A stretch of DNA of 64,000 bases, from assembly GCF_036053395.1 (NCBI RefSeq), contig NZ_CP107942.1:3934501-3998500 (forward strand), in the 5' to 3' direction. How positions within the stretch are numbered: the stretch's first letter is position 1; each line of letters opens with the position of its first letter. The notes beneath the pieces were generated by a model. It saw only the letters and a program-made list of their open reading frames with translations. It was not told where the DNA came from and did not search any database. Below, in pieces: positions 5,467 through 60,953 of the stretch. The DNA is from Actinoplanes sp. NBC_00393. Its GTDB lineage: Bacteria; Actinomycetota; Actinomycetes; Mycobacteriales; Micromonosporaceae. The position numbers and the translations under genes are program-made.

Positions 5467-5487
5467 CGTCATCCCCAAGTCTTCGTT

Positions 5488-5513
5488 ATGTAGGACGTCC
5501 TACGTCCGACGTA
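5488..5513. promoter_or_regulatory. Overlapping palindromes, candidate GntR operator
   Basis: Perfect 14 bp palindrome GTAGGACGTCCTAC at 5490-5503, extended to 18 bp with one mismatched pair (5488-5505), overlaps a second palindrome TACGTC-C-GACGTA at 5501-5513. They lie just upstream of the binding-protein gene and between it and the divergent GntR/FCD gene. FadR-subfamily GntR proteins bind short palindromes with GT and AC half-sites, which this matches. Binding itself is inferred. Confidence 0.6.
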
Positions 5514-5644: not shown

Positions 5645-6364
5645 ATGAGGCGGCGAGTCGCGCCGGCCGCCGGCGCCACGCGCCGGCCCAGCCGTACCGA
5701 TGAGGTGCAACAGCAGATCAAGCAGCTCATCCTCGAACGTGGCCTGACCGCCGGGGACCCGATGCCCACCGAGCTCGAGTTGCTCGACGAGATCAACGTC
5801 AGCCGCAACTCGCTGCGTGAGGCGCTCAAGGCGCTGCAGGCCGTCGGCATCGTGGAGATCCGCCACGGCTTCGGGATGTACGTCGGCACGATGTCGCTGG
5901 TCTCGCTCGTCGACGAGCTCACCTTCCACGGCCGGATGTCGCTGCAGGCCGGCCGCAACGACCTGCGCCACCTGGTGCAGATCCGCGAGGTCCTCGAGTC
6001 CGGGCTGATCCAGCAGGTCATCCGTGGCCGGGAGGCCGGCACTCCGGCCGCCGCCGAGCTGGCCGAGGTGATGGAGCAGATGGAGGCCGAGGCCCGCGCC
6101 GGCAGCGTGACCCCGGAGACCGACAAGCGGTTCCACGAGCTTCTGTACGAGCCACTCGGCAACCCGCTCGTCACGCAGCTGCTGGCGGCGTTCTGGGACG
6201 TCTACCACGCCCTGCACACCGAACTCGACGAGGCCGACGAGACCCCGGTCGAGATCGCCGCCCGCCACCGCCGGGTCTACGACGCGGTCTGCGCCGGCGA
6301 CATCGACGAGTCGGTCGCCGCCCTCAACGAGCACTTCAGCGGGATACGCCGCCGCCTGAGCTGA
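5645..6364 (+). CDS. GntR-family regulator, FadR/FCD subfamily
   Basis: DNA-binding repressor or activator sensing a small carboxylate-like ligand. The winged helix-turn-helix occupies residues about 18-80 (TDEVQQQIKQLILERGL, then NVSRNSLREALKALQAVGIVE and RHGFGMYV), followed by an all-helical FCD domain with DLRHLVQIREVLESGL, the metal or ligand histidines in DKRFHELLYEPLGNP and ARHRRVYDAVCAGD near the end. It is 239 residues, a normal length. It is divergent from the ABC importer with the palindromes at 5488-5513 between, so it most likely controls that operon. The metal-binding His/Asp pattern is consistent with FCD proteins, but the ligand is not predictable. Confidence 0.9.
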   Translation: MRRRVAPAAGATRRPSRTDEVQQQIKQLILERGLTAGDPMPTELELLDEINVSRNSLREALKALQAVGIVEIRHGFGMYVGTMSLVSLVDELTFHGRMSLQAGRNDLRHLVQIREVLESGLIQQVIRGREAGTPAAAELAEVMEQMEAEARAGSVTPETDKRFHELLYEPLGNPLVTQLLAAFWDVYHALHTELDEADETPVEIAARHRRVYDAVCAGDIDESVAALNEHFSGIRRRLS

Positions 6365-6370
6365 GCCCGT

Positions 6371-7318
6371 TCACTCGGCCGCCGCGGCCAGGCGGCCGGC
6401 CAGCTCGCGCAGGTGGGCGATCAGTTCCGGCGGCTCGTGGACGCGGAAGCGGAATCCGAACCGCCCGACGTACAGAGCCAGTTCGTCCAGCGAGTTCGAG
6501 CCGGTGTGCAGGACGCAGCTCGTCTCATCGACGGCTTCCAGAGCGCCGATCGTCGGTGGGATGCGCTCGGCGGCCTCGGCGGGCGGCACGTGCAGGGTGA
6601 TCCGCGCCCGGCACCGGTAGGGGGCGGTGGAGACACCCCGGGTCACATAGGCCGCGAGGTCCTCGTCGGGCAGCGGGCGCGGGCTGAACCGGGGGCCGGT
6701 CGGCACCCGCGGGCGCATCCGGTCCACCCGGTAGGTGCGCCAGTCCTGCCGGTCGACGTCCCAGCCGACCAGATACCAGCGGCGCCCGGTGTGCACCAGC
6801 CGGTACGGCTCCGCGACCCGCAGCGTGGACACCGCATCCTGCCGGGTGTAGTCGAACCGCAGGCGGTGCTGGTCGCGACAGGCGGCGGCGACGGCGGTGA
6901 GCACGTCCGGATCCACAGTGATGCCGCCGGGGACGGCGACGGTCACCGAGCGCAGCAGGTCGACGCGTTGGCGTACCCGCGACGGCAGCACCTGCTCCAG
7001 CTTGGCCAGCGCCCGCAGCGAGATCTCCTCGATGCCGGTGATCGAGCCGCTCGCGGCGGTCCGCAGGCCCACCGCGACGGCCACCGCCTCCTCGTCGTCG
7101 AGCAGCAGCGGCGGCAGCCGCGTGCCGGCGCCGAGCCGGTATCCGGCAGCGCCCGCTGTGGCGTGCACCGGATAACCCAGGTCACGCAGTTTCTGGATGT
7201 CGCGCCGCACGGTACGCACGTCGACGTCGAGGTTGCGGGCGAGTTCGGTGCCGCTCCACTCGCGCGGGGTCTGCAACAGGGCGAGCAGTCGCAGCAGCCG
7301 CGCCGAGGTTTCTGCCAT
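6371..7318 (-). CDS. YafY-type transcriptional regulator, HTH-WYL domains
   Basis: A 315-residue regulator with a DeoR-like helix-turn-helix at residues 1-60 (REWSGTELARNLDVDVRTVRRD) and a WYL ligand-sensing domain around residues 140-220, containing RRWYLVGWD and the following TYRVDRM. WYL proteins bind nucleotides or nucleic acids, or small ligands, and act as repressors or activators. It is divergent from an epoxide hydrolase gene, 63 bases away, with a strong inverted repeat (7340-7360) in the gap. Related in sequence to the WYL protein at 59967-60953 in this window (both start with a variant of LLALL-REWSG). No RBS is obvious; the ATG at 7318 begins directly at the HTH. Confidence 0.9.
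   Translation of the reverse strand: MAETSARLLRLLALLQTPREWSGTELARNLDVDVRTVRRDIQKLRDLGYPVHATAGAAGYRLGAGTRLPPLLLDDEEAVAVAVGLRTAASGSITGIEEISLRALAKLEQVLPSRVRQRVDLLRSVTVAVPGGITVDPDVLTAVAAACRDQHRLRFDYTRQDAVSTLRVAEPYRLVHTGRRWYLVGWDVDRQDWRTYRVDRMRPRVPTGPRFSPRPLPDEDLAAYVTRGVSTAPYRCRARITLHVPPAEAAERIPPTIGALEAVDETSCVLHTGSNSLDELALYVGRFGFRFRVHEPPELIAHLRELAGRLAAAAE
6376..6398. terminator. Possible hairpin between convergent GntR and WYL genes
   Basis: Inverted repeat CGGCCGCC, 7-base loop, GGCGGCCG lies within the last codons of the WYL gene, just after the stop of the convergent GntR gene. No T-run follows. It could terminate the rightward transcript, but GC-rich hairpins are common by chance in such DNA. 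Confidence 0.3.
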
Positions 7319-7339
7319 GCCGCCGATATTCGCACAGAG

Positions 7340-7360
7340 CTAGGACCGAAGCTGTCCTAG
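7340..7360. promoter_or_regulatory. Inverted repeat, candidate WYL-regulator operator
   Basis: Perfect repeat CTAGGAC-N7-GTCCTAG between the divergent WYL regulator (start 7318) and epoxide hydrolase (start 7382). The core GGAC-N7-GTCC also occurs, with longer arms, between the second WYL regulator and its divergent neighbour at 59922-59950, which supports operator function. Confidence 0.65.
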
Positions 7361-7381
7361 GCGGTCCGTAGCGTTGTCGGT

Positions 7382-8521
7382 ATGAGCGAACAGATCACAC
7401 CCTTCCGGATCGACATCGCCGACGAGCGCCTGGACGACCTGCGCCGCCGCCTGCAAGCCACCCGCTGGCCGGAGCCGCTGCCCGGCGACGACTGGACGAC
7501 CGGGGTGCCGACCGGTTGGCTGCGCAAGCTCGCCGAGTACTGGCGCACCGAATTCGACTGGCGGGCGGCGGAGCGGCGGCTCAACTCGTTCCCGCAGTTC
7601 ACCACCGCCATCGACGGGCAGCGCATCCACTTCCTGCACGTGCGCTCCCCGCACCCGGACGCGCTGCCGCTCGTGCTGACCCACGGCTGGCCGGGCTCGG
7701 TCGCCGAGTTCCTCGACCTGATCGGGCCGCTGACCGAGCCGGACGACCCGGCCGACGCCTTTCACCTGGTCATCCCGTCACTGCCCGGCTTCGGCTTCTC
7801 CGGGCCGACCGCCGACGGCGGCTGGGACACCGACCGGATCGCCCGCGCCTGGGCGGAACTGATGCGCCGGCTCGGCTACGAGAGGTACGGCGTGCAGGGT
7901 GGCGACATCGGCGCGGCGGTCAGCCCGCGGGTGGCCCGGACTGCGCCGAAGAACGTGGTCGGCGTACACGTCAACGGCGATCCCGGCCCGATGCCGCCGA
8001 TGGAGCTCTCTGATGAAGAGCTGGCGTCGCTCAGCGAGGTGGAGCGCGACCGGATCGCCCGGATCCAGGAGTTCATGCAGGAGCAGTTCGGCTACATCGC
8101 CATCCAGTCGACCCGGCCGCAGACCCTCGCATACGGGCTGACCGACTCGCCGGCCGGGCAGCTGGCCTGGATCATGGACAAGTTCCGGGAGTGGACGCAT
8201 CCGCGGCCGACGCTGCCCGAGGAGATCATCAGCCGGGACTGGCTGCTCACCAACGCCAGCATCTACTGGTTCACCGCCACGGCGGGCAGCGCGGCGTACG
8301 TGGGATACGGCCAGTCGAACTGGGGCGCGGTCGACGAGAACTCCGGCGTGCCCACCGGGGTCATCGTCTTCGCCCAGGACATCGGGATCCGCCGGTACGC
8401 CGAGACCCAGAACACCATCGTCCGCTGGACGGACGTCGACCACGGCGGGCACTTCGCAGCGCTGGAGGAGCCGGACCTGCTCGTCGCCGACGTCCGCGAC
8501 TTCTTCCGCGACCTGCGCTGA
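7382..8521 (+). CDS. Epoxide hydrolase (EHN plus alpha/beta-hydrolase)
   Basis: 379-residue soluble enzyme that would open epoxides to diols. The amino-terminal EHN domain ([18 protein letters not shown], residues 7-24, through the R-TRWPE segment) is typical of microsomal-type epoxide hydrolases. The hydrolase fold follows: oxyanion region HGWPGS at 101-106, nucleophile Asp175 in GGDIGA, and the catalytic His in [12 protein letters not shown] near residue 357. Asp rather than Ser at the nucleophile elbow fits epoxide hydrolase. Starts at ATG 7382, divergent from the WYL regulator with an operator-like repeat between, so probably its regulatory target. Natural substrate unknown; detoxification or natural-product tailoring are both possible. 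Confidence 0.9.
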
Positions 8522-30823: not shown

Positions 30824-31962
30824 CCGGTCACCCGCCCGGGGACGTGGGCGGTGAGCAGCAGGCCGCCGTCGCGGGCCGAGGCGAACCGCAGCGTGCCGCC
30901 CACCCGCTCCATCCGTTCGGCAAGGCCGCGCAGACCGTTCCCCGGCTCCGGCCGGCCACCGGCGCCGTCGTCGCGGACGGTCAACGTCGCTCCCGCGGCG
31001 TCGACCTCGACCGCGATGTCACACCGTGCGGCCCCGCTGTGCCGCAGCACATTGGTCACCCCTTCCCGCAGCACCCACCGGAACGCGTCGCCGGCCTCGG
31101 CGCCGAGCGGCTGTCCGCTCTCCCGCACCGTCACCGCGATGCCGACGTCGGCCAGGATGGCTCGGGCATGGGCCAGTTCCCGGCCGAAATCCTGCTCACG
31201 GTAGCCGTTGACCGCCTCCCGAACCTCGGCCAGCGCCGTGCGACCGATCCGTTCGATGTCGGCCGCCTCCACCGCGGCCCGGCCGGGATCGGCCGGGACG
31301 AGCCGGCGCACCACCTCGGCCTTCACCACCACCAGCGACAACGTGTGGCCGAGCAGGTCGTGCAGGTCCTGGGCGAAGCGCAGCCGTTCCCGCTCGACCA
31401 TGCTGTGGGCCAGTTCCTGCTGCGTGCGGCGCAGCTCCTCGACCAGCCGAGCCACCCGCGCGAAGGCCACCGTCACCGCGCCGGCCAGCAGCGTGATCAA
31501 TGCCGTCGTCATCGTGTCGTCGCCGGGCAGCCGGTGCGCGGCGCCGATCACCAGCACCGCGACCACGCTGCCGCCGACCCAGGCGAACGCCCAGCCGGCG
31601 CGGGCCAGCCCCACGGCGCCGGCCGAGCAGACGAACATCAGCAGGATCAGCCAGTCCTGCGGGCCGCCGGCGTACGCGCCGGCCAGCCCGACCCCCAGCA
31701 CCGCGAGCAGGGCGAGCCCGACGCGGTGCACGGCGGGCCGAACCGTCAGATCCATCACGGGTACGGCTACCAGCGCGAGGTTGAGCAGGGCGAAGACGAC
31801 CAGTCCCACCGCTGCCACCGGCGCCCGGGCGACCTGTCCCCGCGCGATCGCCGCGGCCGGCGGCACGAGGAACCACAGCCACAGGGTGTGCGCCGCCAGC
31901 AGGGTCAGCCCGCGGCGCGCACCACGGTCGGCGGCGGTCGGGACGGCGGGTGCACCGGGCAT
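30820..31962 (-). CDS. Sensor histidine kinase (HisKA_3/DesK type)
   Basis: 380 residues. Five or six hydrophobic helices in the first 170 residues (sensor region), then the dimerisation/phosphorylation motif RFAQDLHDLLGH with His201, and the ATPase part with NVLRHSGA (N box), DDGAGG and GNGLRGLAERM. No large extracellular domain, so the signal is probably sensed in or through the membrane. ATG 31962 is used; an in-frame GTG at 31971 (three codons upstream) is equally plausible. It lies between the ABC permease and the response regulator. Confidence 0.92.
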   Translation of the reverse strand: MPGAPAVPTAADRGARRGLTLLAAHTLWLWFLVPPAAAIARGQVARAPVAAVGLVVFALLNLALVAVPVMDLTVRPAVHRVGLALLAVLGVGLAGAYAGGPQDWLILLMFVCSAGAVGLARAGWAFAWVGGSVVAVLVIGAAHRLPGDDTMTTALITLLAGAVTVAFARVARLVEELRRTQQELAHSMVERERLRFAQDLHDLLGHTLSLVVVKAEVVRRLVPADPGRAAVEAADIERIGRTALAEVREAVNGYREQDFGRELAHARAILADVGIAVTVRESGQPLGAEAGDAFRWVLREGVTNVLRHSGAARCDIAVEVDAAGATLTVRDDGAGGRPEPGNGLRGLAERMERVGGTLRFASARDGGLLLTAHVPGRVTG

Positions 31963-58464: not shown

Positions 58465-59904
58465 TCAGTGGCCGGAGTCCGGCGCGGCCGCCCGGGGCAG
58501 CAACAGCATCAGGCCGGCCGCCACGACGTAGAGCACGACCTGCCAGCTCAGCACGCTGCCGAACGCGTCGCTGAACACCTGAAGGCGGTCCGGCGCGCTG
58601 TCGACCGCGAGGAAGAACACGGTGCCCAGGACGGCGACGCCGGCGGCGCCGCCGATCTGCGTGACGGTGGAGAGCACCCCGCCGGCGGCGCCCGCGTCAC
58701 GGCCCGGCACACCGGCGAGGATGACATTGACCAGGATCGGCGCGGTCAGCCCCAGCCCGAGCCCGCCGGCGAACAGGGCGAGCGCCAGCATGGCGTACCC
58801 GGGGTCCTGTCCGTCGCGGACCAGCCACGACAGCATCGCCTGGGAAGCGGCGAGCAGGAGCGAGCCGGTCACCGCGAGGGCCCGCCCGGCCCGGGCAGCC
58901 AGCGCGACACCGAGGCCGGAGGTGAGGACGGAGCCGATGGCGTACGGCAGGATCACCAGACCGGTCTGCCAGGCGCTGCGGCCGGTGCCGGCCTGCAGGT
59001 AGATCGACAGGGTGAGGAAGAACGCCGCGATGGCGCCGAAGAAGAACAACGCGGCGGCGAGGCCGGCGGCGAAGCTGCGGATTTGAAGCAGCGCGGGGTC
59101 CAGCAGCGGCTGCCCGCCGCGGGCGGCGAGGCGGGCCTCGGCAGCCAGGAAGGCGAGCAGCACCACGACACCGGCCGCGATCAGCGCGAACCCCCACCAC
59201 GGCCAGCCCCAGACCCGGCCCTGGACGAGCGGGAGAAGGATCAGCAGGACCGCCCCGGTCACGGTGACCGCGCCCCGCAGGTCCAGTCTGGTCCGCTCGC
59301 CGCCGGTCGACTCGGGCAGCACCCGGGCGCCCAGGGCGAGCGCGATCAGCCCGATCGGCACGTTGATCCAAAAGATGGTCCGCCAGCCCAGGCCGAACAG
59401 GTCCGCGTCCACCAGGAATCCACCGAGCAGCGGGCCGGCCACCGAGGCCAGGCTCAGCACCGCGCCGTACGCGCCGAACGCCCGGGCCCGGCCGGCGGCG
59501 TCGAACGACGAGCGGATGATGCCGAACACCTGCGGAACCATCACCCCGGCCGCCAGGCCCTGCAGCGCCCGGGTGGCGATCAGCATGGCCGGACCGGTCG
59601 CCAGCGCGCACAGCGCCGACGCGGCCACGAAACCGGCCAGGCCGGCCAGGAAGATGCGGCGCCGGCCGTAGCTGTCGCCGATGCGGCCGCCGGTGATCAG
59701 GGCCGAGCCCAGCGCGAGGGTGTAAGCGGCCAGCGTCCACTGCAGCTGCGCCTCGCTCGCGCCGAGGTCGGCGGCCAGCGCGGGTGCGGCGACGACCACG
59801 ATCGTCGCGTCGAGCAGATCCATGAAGTCGGCGAACAGGACCACCGCCAAGGCGATGCCGGCGGAGCGTCCCGCCCGTTGCAGCGGTGCTGGTGATGTCG
59901 TCAT
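58465..59904 (-). CDS. MFS drug-efflux transporter, EmrB/QacA type (14 helices)
   Basis: 479 residues. DHA2-type motifs: FADFMDLLDATIVVVAAPAL (motif D1), LITGGRIGDSYGRRRIFLAG (motif A), ALQGLAAGVMVPQVFG, and GPLLGGFLVDADLFGLGWRTIFWINVPIG (motif C). It exports drugs or toxic compounds with protons. ATG 59904 starts it; the first 25 codons of the longer frame (from 59979) cross the operator. It is divergent from a WYL regulator and separated by the inverted repeat at 59922-59950. Confidence 0.93.
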   Translation of the reverse strand: MTTSPAPLQRAGRSAGIALAVVLFADFMDLLDATIVVVAAPALAADLGASEAQLQWTLAAYTLALGSALITGGRIGDSYGRRRIFLAGLAGFVAASALCALATGPAMLIATRALQGLAAGVMVPQVFGIIRSSFDAAGRARAFGAYGAVLSLASVAGPLLGGFLVDADLFGLGWRTIFWINVPIGLIALALGARVLPESTGGERTRLDLRGAVTVTGAVLLILLPLVQGRVWGWPWWGFALIAAGVVVLLAFLAAEARLAARGGQPLLDPALLQIRSFAAGLAAALFFFGAIAAFFLTLSIYLQAGTGRSAWQTGLVILPYAIGSVLTSGLGVALAARAGRALAVTGSLLLAASQAMLSWLVRDGQDPGYAMLALALFAGGLGLGLTAPILVNVILAGVPGRDAGAAGGVLSTVTQIGGAAGVAVLGTVFFLAVDSAPDRLQVFSDAFGSVLSWQVVLYVVAAGLMLLLPRAAAPDSGH

Positions 59905-59921
59905 ACCGGGCACGCTGACAC

Positions 59922-59950
59922 CGGTACCGGACACCGGATGTCCGGTACCG
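59922..59950. promoter_or_regulatory. 12 bp-arm inverted repeat, candidate WYL operator
   Basis: CGGTACCGGACA, five-base spacer, TGTCCGGTACCG: perfect arms between the divergent MFS (59904) and WYL regulator (59967). Core GGAC-N7-GTCC equals that at 7340-7360. Confidence 0.8.
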
Positions 59951-59966
59951 ACGGCAGCATGGTGCC

Positions 59967-60953
59967 GTGGCCACGACATCGGAGCGCATCCTGAAGCTGC
60001 TGTCCCTGCTGGCGTCGCGCCGCGAGTGGAGCGGCGACGAACTCGCCGCCCGCGCCGGGGTGAGCACGCGCACCATCCGGCGCGACATCGAGGCGCTGCG
60101 CGAACTCGGCTACCCGGTGCTGACGACCAAGGGTCCGGACGGCGGGTACCGGCTCGGCGCCGGCACCACGCTGCCGCCGTTGATGTTCGACGACGACCAG
60201 GCGGTCGCCGTCGCGCTGGCGTTGCAGACGGCGCCGGCCACCGTGTTCGGCCTCAGCGACGCCGCGGCCCGGGCGCTGGAGACCATCCAGCAGGTCATGC
60301 CCGCCCGGCTGCGGGCCGAGATCGACGCGCTGCGCATCACCCGGCTGCGCAACTGGTGGGAGTTCGCCGCCCCGCCGATCGACGCGGGCGCCCTCAAGGC
60401 GGTCGGCAACGCCGTACGCAAAGGTCATCTGCTGCTCTTCGACTACCTGCGGCCCGACGGCACGCGACCCGAACCGCGCGACGCTGATTTCGTGCCGCCG
60501 CTCCGGGTCGAACCGCACCACCTGGTGTTGTGGGCGGGCCGGTGGTATCTGGTCGCCTACGAGCCGGCCAGCGGCTCCTGGCCGATCTACCGCGTCGACC
60601 GCATCCACGCCCACACGCCGACCGGCCGGCCCTTCACCCGCCGGGACCTGCCCGGCGGCAGTGTCGCCAACCACGTCATGAACAGCTACGACCGCGGCGA
60701 CACCCGGCCCGACTGGCAGTGCGTCGGCACCGCGCGGATGGACCTGCCGCCGGAGATCGTGGCCCGCTGGGCTCCCGGCGGATCAGTGGTCGAGTACGTC
60801 GGTCCCGCTCAGGCGCGGATCACGCTGGGCGCCTGGTCGTGGGCCGGCATCGCGGGCATCCTCGCCACCTTCGACGCCGACATCGACGTCATCGAACCGG
60901 CTGAACTGCGCGACGCCTGCCGCGCCCTGGCACGAAGACTTTCGAAGGCGTGA
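59967..60953 (+). CDS. YafY-type WYL transcriptional regulator (paralogue of 6371-7318)
   Basis: 328 residues. HTH at 1-60 (ERILKLLSLLASRREWSGDELAARAGVSTRTIRRD), WYL domain with GRWYLVAYE near residue 193 and IYRVDRIH. Like its paralogue at 6371-7318 it has no extra effector domain. GTG 59967. It diverges from the efflux pump with the inverted repeat between, so it probably represses the pump until a ligand is sensed. Confidence 0.92.
   Translation: MATTSERILKLLSLLASRREWSGDELAARAGVSTRTIRRDIEALRELGYPVLTTKGPDGGYRLGAGTTLPPLMFDDDQAVAVALALQTAPATVFGLSDAAARALETIQQVMPARLRAEIDALRITRLRNWWEFAAPPIDAGALKAVGNAVRKGHLLLFDYLRPDGTRPEPRDADFVPPLRVEPHHLVLWAGRWYLVAYEPASGSWPIYRVDRIHAHTPTGRPFTRRDLPGGSVANHVMNSYDRGDTRPDWQCVGTARMDLPPEIVARWAPGGSVVEYVGPAQARITLGAWSWAGIAGILATFDADIDVIEPAELRDACRALARRLSKA

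Follow-up and report, generated by a model that had tools for sequence, protein, structure and literature searches.

Candidate operators of two WYL regulators in Actinoplanes sp. NBC_00393 and the covariation of their half-sites with recognition-helix residues

Introduction

WYL regulators are widespread and mostly uncharacterised. The stretch of DNA analysed here (the window; 64,000 nucleotides of Actinoplanes sp. NBC_00393) encodes two of them, WYL1 and WYL2, each divergent from a putative target gene and separated from it by a palindrome with the core GGAC-N7-GTCC. A preliminary description took these palindromes for operators and the shared core for a recognition signature of the family. 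Are they the sites at which the neighbouring regulators bind and, if so, which features of protein and DNA determine the match? The literature searched, mostly papers available without subscription, yielded no family-wide study of WYL operators and no recognition code for them. The correlation of residues with bases is itself a standard method for the IclR, GntR, LacI, and MerR families; the recognition-code studies of these groups, as far as the accessible parts of the accounts describe them, apply the same approach to large regulator–operator sets in other protein families (PMC8222616, PMC2978694, PMC4494728, PMC5045206). What appears to be new here is a residue rule across the WYL family, together with a mirror-symmetric promoter layout.

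Results

The two loci

Features of both loci are collected in Table 1. Site 1 sits at the exact midpoint of the 63 bp that separate WYL1 from the epoxide hydrolase gene. Its arms (CTAGGAC, 7340-7346; GTCCTAG, 7354-7360) are fully complementary and 7 nt apart, and its centre base is 32 bp from the A of either ATG (7318 on the minus strand, 7382 on the plus strand). The centre of site 2 is 31 bp from the GTG of WYL2 (59967) and 32 bp from the ATG of the MFS transporter gene (59904). The latter start was preferred to 59979 because of the register of operator and -10 element; the mechanical open reading frame (ORF), which spans 58465-59979, has a start that crosses site 2. The transporter's match to TIGR00711 (NCBIfam) falls below the curated cut-off.

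Table 1. Coordinates of the palindromes, genes, and predicted promoter elements at the two WYL loci of the window.
Feature	Position	Strand	Basis or detail
Site 1, palindromic, probable operator, CTAGGAC-N7-GTCCTAG	7340-7360, centre 7350		Perfect 7-bp arms; conservation in relatives
WYL1 regulator, 315 aa (HTH_11 + WYL + WCX)	6371-7318	-	Pfam
Epoxide hydrolase (EHN + alpha/beta hydrolase, abhydrolase), putative divergent target	7382-8521	+	Pfam
Predicted -10 of epoxide hydrolase promoter, TAGCGT	7369-7374	+	+19 to +24 from centre; inferred
Predicted -10 of WYL1 promoter, GAATAT	7326-7331	-	+19 to +24 from centre; inferred
Site 2, palindromic, probable operator, CGGTACCGGACA-N5-TGTCCGGTACCG	59922-59950, centre 59936		12-bp arms, 5-nt spacer
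WYL2 regulator, 328 aa (HTH_11 + WYL + WCX)	59967-60953	+	Pfam
MFS transporter (DHA2/EmrB-like), putative divergent target	58465-59904	-	Pfam, NCBIfam; start by register
Predicted -10 of MFS promoter, CAGCGT	59912-59917	-	+19 to +24 from centre
Predicted -10 of WYL2 promoter, CAGCAT	59955-59960	+	+19 to +24 from centre

The HTH_11, WYL, and WCX domains exceed their curated Pfam cut-offs in both regulators. The second locus had been called unrelated, which holds for the loci and their targets; the proteins themselves are paralogues, 43% identical. A structural model of WYL1, of modest quality (mean pLDDT 74.6, pTM 0.42), places the predicted recognition helix, with R35, R38, and R39, at residues 34-46 and the predicted wing strands at 51-53 and 60-62. 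Its fold matches PafBC (the top match), DriD, CapW, and BrxR, with E values from 9e-16 to 1e-7 and low TM-scores (0.24-0.45).

As a bare sequence, site 1 is unremarkable, unlike site 2. GGAC-N7-GTCC occurs three times in the window, where shuffling predicts 3.44 (at least three are reached in 72 of 100 shuffles), and perfect 7-bp arms around a 7-nt spacer occur 19 times against about 13 expected, while 12-bp arms like those of site 2 are found once against about 0.03. Since the core is not enriched and such 7-bp arms are not rare in the window, the case for site 1 rests on its relatives: the excess over chance lies in position and in conservation across them.

Palindromes before WYL genes

Among 80 WYL1 homologues from named genomes, 23 carry GGAC-N7-GTCC between -160 and +15, in 22 cases near the WYL start and in one (L038) at -109; most of the remaining homologues have a palindrome of differing sequence in the same place. 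A wider set of 203 WYL proteins, drawn from the WYL1-homologue loci and from the own, genus-level, and class-level genomes, has its best odd-centred palindrome (at least 6/7) at -32 in 71 cases and at -31 in 42, where the background rate at other centres is about 0.6%. After removal of duplicates and of proteins with partial N-termini, 276 WYL genes were available. A palindrome of at least 6/8 is centred between -33 and -30 in 182 of them and absent from those positions in 94; such a palindrome stands there before 30 of 767 other ORF starts, a control made up of mechanical ORFs of at least 200 aa from the L018-L097 loci, spurious ones included. One locus with N letters upstream (L145) was excluded from ratios and from the covariation, tree, and promoter-layout counts. 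In the organism's own genome, 15 of 18 WYL-domain matches were kept, and nine of the 15 have a palindrome of at least 6/8 at -34 to -30.

The exact core GGAC-N7-GTCC is centred 30-33 bp before the start codon in 46 of the 276 genes, against 0.17 expected from 161 other positions, so the search of divergent WYL genes that the preliminary description had proposed is strongly positive. Position and conservation in relatives likewise support the reading of both palindromes as WYL operators that are placed alike with respect to a divergent target. The claim that the core is the signature of the family fits those 46 genes and fails for the 230 without the exact core, which changes with the recognition helix. 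Site 1 is very probably the operator of the adjacent WYL1, and site 2 very probably that of WYL2, as far as position and conservation of sequence can indicate.

Palindromes of this kind also occur further afield. Among 19 plasmid-borne WYL loci from Pseudomonadota, Bacillota, and Deinococcota (Shinella is counted twice, with nearly identical loci), a palindrome that bears CA-N5-TG and scores at least 6/8 lies in the 60 bp upstream of 11 and is missing from the other eight; the chance of such a palindrome, estimated from more distant upstream positions, is about 0.01 per locus. Position 39 is Arg in all 11 loci that bear the palindrome, so that none of them bears on the Asn rule described below.

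Promoter layout

A -10-like pattern, NAnnnT, stands at +19 to +24 from the operator centre on the WYL side in 170 of 183 operators and on the other side in 163 of 183, a register that was chosen from, and then counted on, largely the same loci. On neither side of these 183 operators was a -35 element found: at normal spacing the mean numbers of matches are 1.69 and 1.99 of 6, fewer than the 2.40 in shuffled operator letters. Divergent genes were counted on mechanical ORFs. A candidate with its start codon 28-36 bp from the centre, mostly at 31 or 32 bp, faces 109 of 201 operators. Homologues of the epoxide hydrolase make up 72 of 194 candidate divergent ORFs, 68 of them starting 28-36 bp from the centre, and homologues of the window's MFS transporter make up 11, of which eight start within that range. 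Five nearer homologues that were compared (L018-L021 and L026) all face such an epoxide hydrolase, 49-61% identical. With start codons some 32 bp from the centre and 7 bp between -10 element and start codon, leaderless transcripts are probable. A single WYL dimer appears to stand in for both -35 elements of two promoters arranged as mirror images.

Recognition-helix residues and half-site bases

Half-site positions are numbered from the palindrome centre. In centre-aligned operators the weighted conservation of G is 98% at position 6 and 89% at position 7; positions 4, 5, and 8-12 differ between WYL subfamilies. Mutual information was computed for 315 protein columns and 10 half-site positions (3150 cells) from 189 pairs with an effective number of 113. 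The highest raw value, 1.00 bit, joins residue 55 in the wing to position 10, and the second-highest, 0.84 bit, joins residue 39 in the recognition helix to position 4; after average-product correction the latter pair comes first, followed by 58 with 11 and 55 with 10. In the WYL1 model the covarying residues fall where the predicted recognition helix begins and in the span that separates the predicted wing strands. Past column 56 the wing alignment is uncertain, WYL1 being one residue shorter there.

The association at residue 39 is nearly categorical: Arg goes with C4 (GGAC) in 253 of 260 half-sites, and Asn with A4 (GGAA) in 98 of 100. In loci fetched after this rule had been formulated, where 48 of 76 had a usable palindrome (the 74 of the 276 genes without one of at least 6/8 in -46 to -17 are left out of these counts), the corresponding figures are 71 of 78 and 14 of 16. 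Among 25 representatives less than 70% identical over the N-terminal 75 columns, they are 42 of 44 and 4 of 4. The exact GGAC-N7-GTCC is found in 46 of 199 Arg39 genes and in none of 60 Asn39 genes, 38 of which have GGAA-N7-TTCC; a constant GGAC-N7-GTCC core for the family was rejected on that count. Less variable than the core are G6, the 5 bases that separate the half-sites, and the distances at which the two -10 elements and the two start codons lie. The core common to sites 1 and 2 very probably reflects recognition residues that their regulators share.

Further associations emerged at residues 35 and 38. In the new loci R35 accompanies G6 in 81 of 88 half-sites and A or S35 accompanies C6 in 8 of 8, while R38 accompanies G7 in 61 of 68 and L, Y, or Q38 accompanies C or T7 in 22 of 24; these counts are not independent tests, since both rules were first seen in the new loci themselves. 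One group (L012 and its relatives L248-L250) has Ala or Ser in place of R35, and its operators read GTGCTCA-N5-TGAGCAC, with C in place of G6. A subfamily of genus relatives with Leu34 (L103-L123) has a shifted-looking half-site, AGGTGCCA, rather than (C/A)GGACA, with T7 in 32 of 38 half-sites. A wing rule pairing R55 with T10 failed in the new loci (19 T and 24 A among 46 half-sites). The proposal that the flanks confer specificity is plausible in view of the raw mutual information at position 10; it is weakened by this failure and by the tree-based result for K55 given below. Taken as sequence covariation, these patterns suggest that single amino acids of the recognition helix decide which operator bases WYL regulators bind.

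Ancestry

It is conceivable that large Arg39 and Asn39 clades carry different operators for other reasons, and that shared ancestry explains the association of residue 39 with position 4. Base evolution was therefore simulated on a FastTree tree built without the DNA-binding domain, for pairs picked after looking at the data. The R39-C4 association was reached in none of 5000 simulations, R35-G6 in 3, L34-T7 in 7, K55-A10 in 55, and R38-G7 in 91 of 2000 each. Residue 39 has few independent state changes on the trees (4-7), and an independent-pairs test, with only three supported pairs, each of them concordant, did not reach significance by itself (p 0.25); both leave room for an effect of descent. 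Against it stand the simulations and the rank of residue 39, which among about 315 columns shares the most mutual information with position 4. In the accessible part of the BrxR–DNA crystal account, moreover, R38 of the helix contacts positions ±6 and 7 and K64 of the wing contacts ±10 and 11, near the covarying positions (PMC9122589). We consider shared ancestry improbable as the explanation. Given the simulation counts, the few changes at residue 39, and the independent-pairs result, R39-C4 is well supported, the R35 and L34 associations are moderately supported, and those of R38 and the wing weakly.

Discussion

Comparison with known WYL systems is limited to the accessible parts of the published accounts. 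A close parallel in placement is DriD, a WYL activator of Caulobacter crescentus with the consensus ATACGAC(X)7GTCGTAT and Arg–guanine contacts, which sits over the -35 of a divergent operon at a fixed distance from the -10 and contacts RNA polymerase (PMC12340889, preprint). Like WYL1, whose model its fold matches, it is a wHTH-WYL-WCX protein beside a divergent gene; the GAC-N7-GTC core of its consensus is present in sites 1 and 2, and its type of placement is matched in the sequence by a -10-like element at +19 to +24 with no -35. DriD differs in that it has several targets and activates the divergent operon and not its own gene (PMC12340889), whereas each exact site here is unique in the genome, -10-like elements stand on both sides, flanks and targets are different, and single-stranded DNA, the trigger of activation by DriD, is not a known ligand of WYL1. 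SiwR of Mycobacterium smegmatis, an actinobacterial homodimer, activates divergent genes from a palindrome in a gap of similar size, about 60 bp, and its HTH variant R38A-R42A loses function (PMC10693628). Its palindrome is imperfect, 19 bp long, located between -35 and -10, and has a conserved GGA; its target genes are DinB-like, unlike the epoxide hydrolase and MFS transporter genes, and Pfam recognised no divergent DinB-superfamily target at sites 1 and 2. The available portion of the SiwR account contains no residue–base rule (PMC10693628).

BrxR of Acinetobacter binds 10-bp half-sites 5 nt apart (PMC9122589). The arms of site 2 have the same separation, and site 1 agrees with it in centre and register, with position 3 mismatched. 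BrxR differs in its AT-rich half-site and its defence operon (PMC9122589); its similarity is weak, with a fold match at 16-17% identity. PafBC, a mycobacterial WYL-wHTH pair and the top fold match of the WYL1 model, provides sigma adaptation where promoters lack a usable -35 (PMC11804915); it differs in being a heterodimer with a large regulon, a requirement for single-stranded DNA in promoter binding, and a different site. Both window loci have a single WYL gene rather than a PafB/PafC arrangement, and the adjacent PafB/PafC-like pair of this genome (L006) lies elsewhere.

We regard it as likely that site 1 is the operator of a WYL1 homodimer, at the dyad of two promoters without -35 elements, from which RNA polymerase is most likely recruited for the divergent gene. 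Each winged helix-turn-helix of the dimer would read one half-site, with arginines 35, 38, and 39 of the recognition helix reading G6, G7, and the G opposite C4, and the wing reaching positions 10-12. Bound at the dyad of back-to-back promoters that have -10 elements and no -35, the dimer would take the place of both -35 elements and most likely recruit RNA polymerase to the divergent gene in the manner of DriD, presumably when its WYL domain binds a ligand; WYL1 may also set its own level from site 1. Site 2 would work in the same way for WYL2 and the MFS gene.

The same operator could, alternatively, serve a repressor: WYL1 would occlude both promoters until a ligand releases it. BrxR and CapW are both described as repressors, and an operator flanked by -10 elements on both sides could obstruct RNA polymerase. 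Moreover, the BrxR palindrome, with the same 5-nt spacing, overlaps a -35, and BrxR is proposed to repress the BREX defence operon (PMC9122589). A promoter that is strong when not repressed should, however, retain its -35 matches, which are lacking here, and DriD and SiwR, likewise placed beside divergent genes, activate (PMC12340889, PMC10693628). Repression is the main rival and a possibility to be taken seriously, although we think it unlikely. If the palindromes are operators, -10 elements on both sides with no -35 make activation of the divergent gene by WYL1 and WYL2 the likelier mode, with fair confidence.

Two further explanations concern the palindrome itself. It might belong to another regulator, such as the GntR/FCD protein whose gene (5645-6364, plus strand) adjoins WYL1, but across deep paralogues, whose neighbours differ, the bases of the half-site vary in step with the recognition-helix residue of the WYL protein encoded alongside, which makes this very unlikely. 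It might also be a chance palindrome, or an RNA hairpin, with no regulatory role. The near-chance frequency of its arm type and the lack of core enrichment in the window would permit the former, but most homologues keep position and symmetry while the sequence changes, and the palindrome probably lies upstream of both predicted starts and so in neither mRNA. Neither form is, in our view, at all credible, and we retain the WYL1 operator as the preferred reading.

Extended beyond this genome, the observations may reflect a single grammar of WYL-wHTH proteins, not confined to Actinobacteria, in which a palindrome with a 5-nt spacer stands between mirror-image, -35-less, leaderless promoters and its half-site can be read from the protein (R35 for G6, R38 for G7, R39 for C4, N39 for A4, and the wing for positions 10-12). 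We lean, if only slightly, toward this generalisation. Were it true, the operators of very many uncharacterised WYL regulators could be predicted and single-residue swaps of specificity could be tested; if the residue–base rule and symmetric layout hold, operator, promoter, and main target would often be predictable from sequence. If the rule holds, the single substitution R39N would put a recognition code cleanly to the test in a winged helix-turn-helix family. From the fixed placement over the -35 it would also follow that many actinobacterial WYL proteins are activators that stand in for this element, as DriD and PafBC do in the accounts available.

Within the 11.4-Mb genome, sites 1 and 2 look like dedicated local operators rather than boxes of a regulon, each having a single exact copy, its own. 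With up to 2 mismatches allowed, site 1 has five other matches, each with 2 mismatches, against 39 for a backward-read control; a genome-wide regulon for site 1 was rejected because its near-copies are fewer than in that control. Near-copies of site 2 with 2-3 mismatches lie at 31377, 1782423, and 2410121. The one at 31377 is overlapped by candidate ORFs alone, on both strands, and that at 2410121 is the operator of a WYL2 paralogue, L007 (C1:2410121-2410145), with 3 mismatches to site 2, so that cross-binding between WYL2 and L007 is possible. The remaining one (C1:1782423-1782447; L336 2124-2148), ATAGCGGACA-N5-TGACCGGTAC, is again a palindrome of the WYL type. Its centre lies 32 bp ahead of a gene whose product resembles, by eye, a VOC/glyoxalase-like protein, and TAGCGT occupies the -10 register. 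No WYL gene was recognised by eye among the ORFs of the surrounding 4.2-kb stretch, and the palindrome is a possible in-trans target of WYL2 or L007. The third GGAC-N7-GTCC match of the window, GGACGTCCTACGTCC at 5493-5507, sits between an ORF starting at 5478 on the minus strand (by eye, one for a solute-binding protein) and the gene of the GntR/FCD regulator; it may be a chance match or a GntR site.
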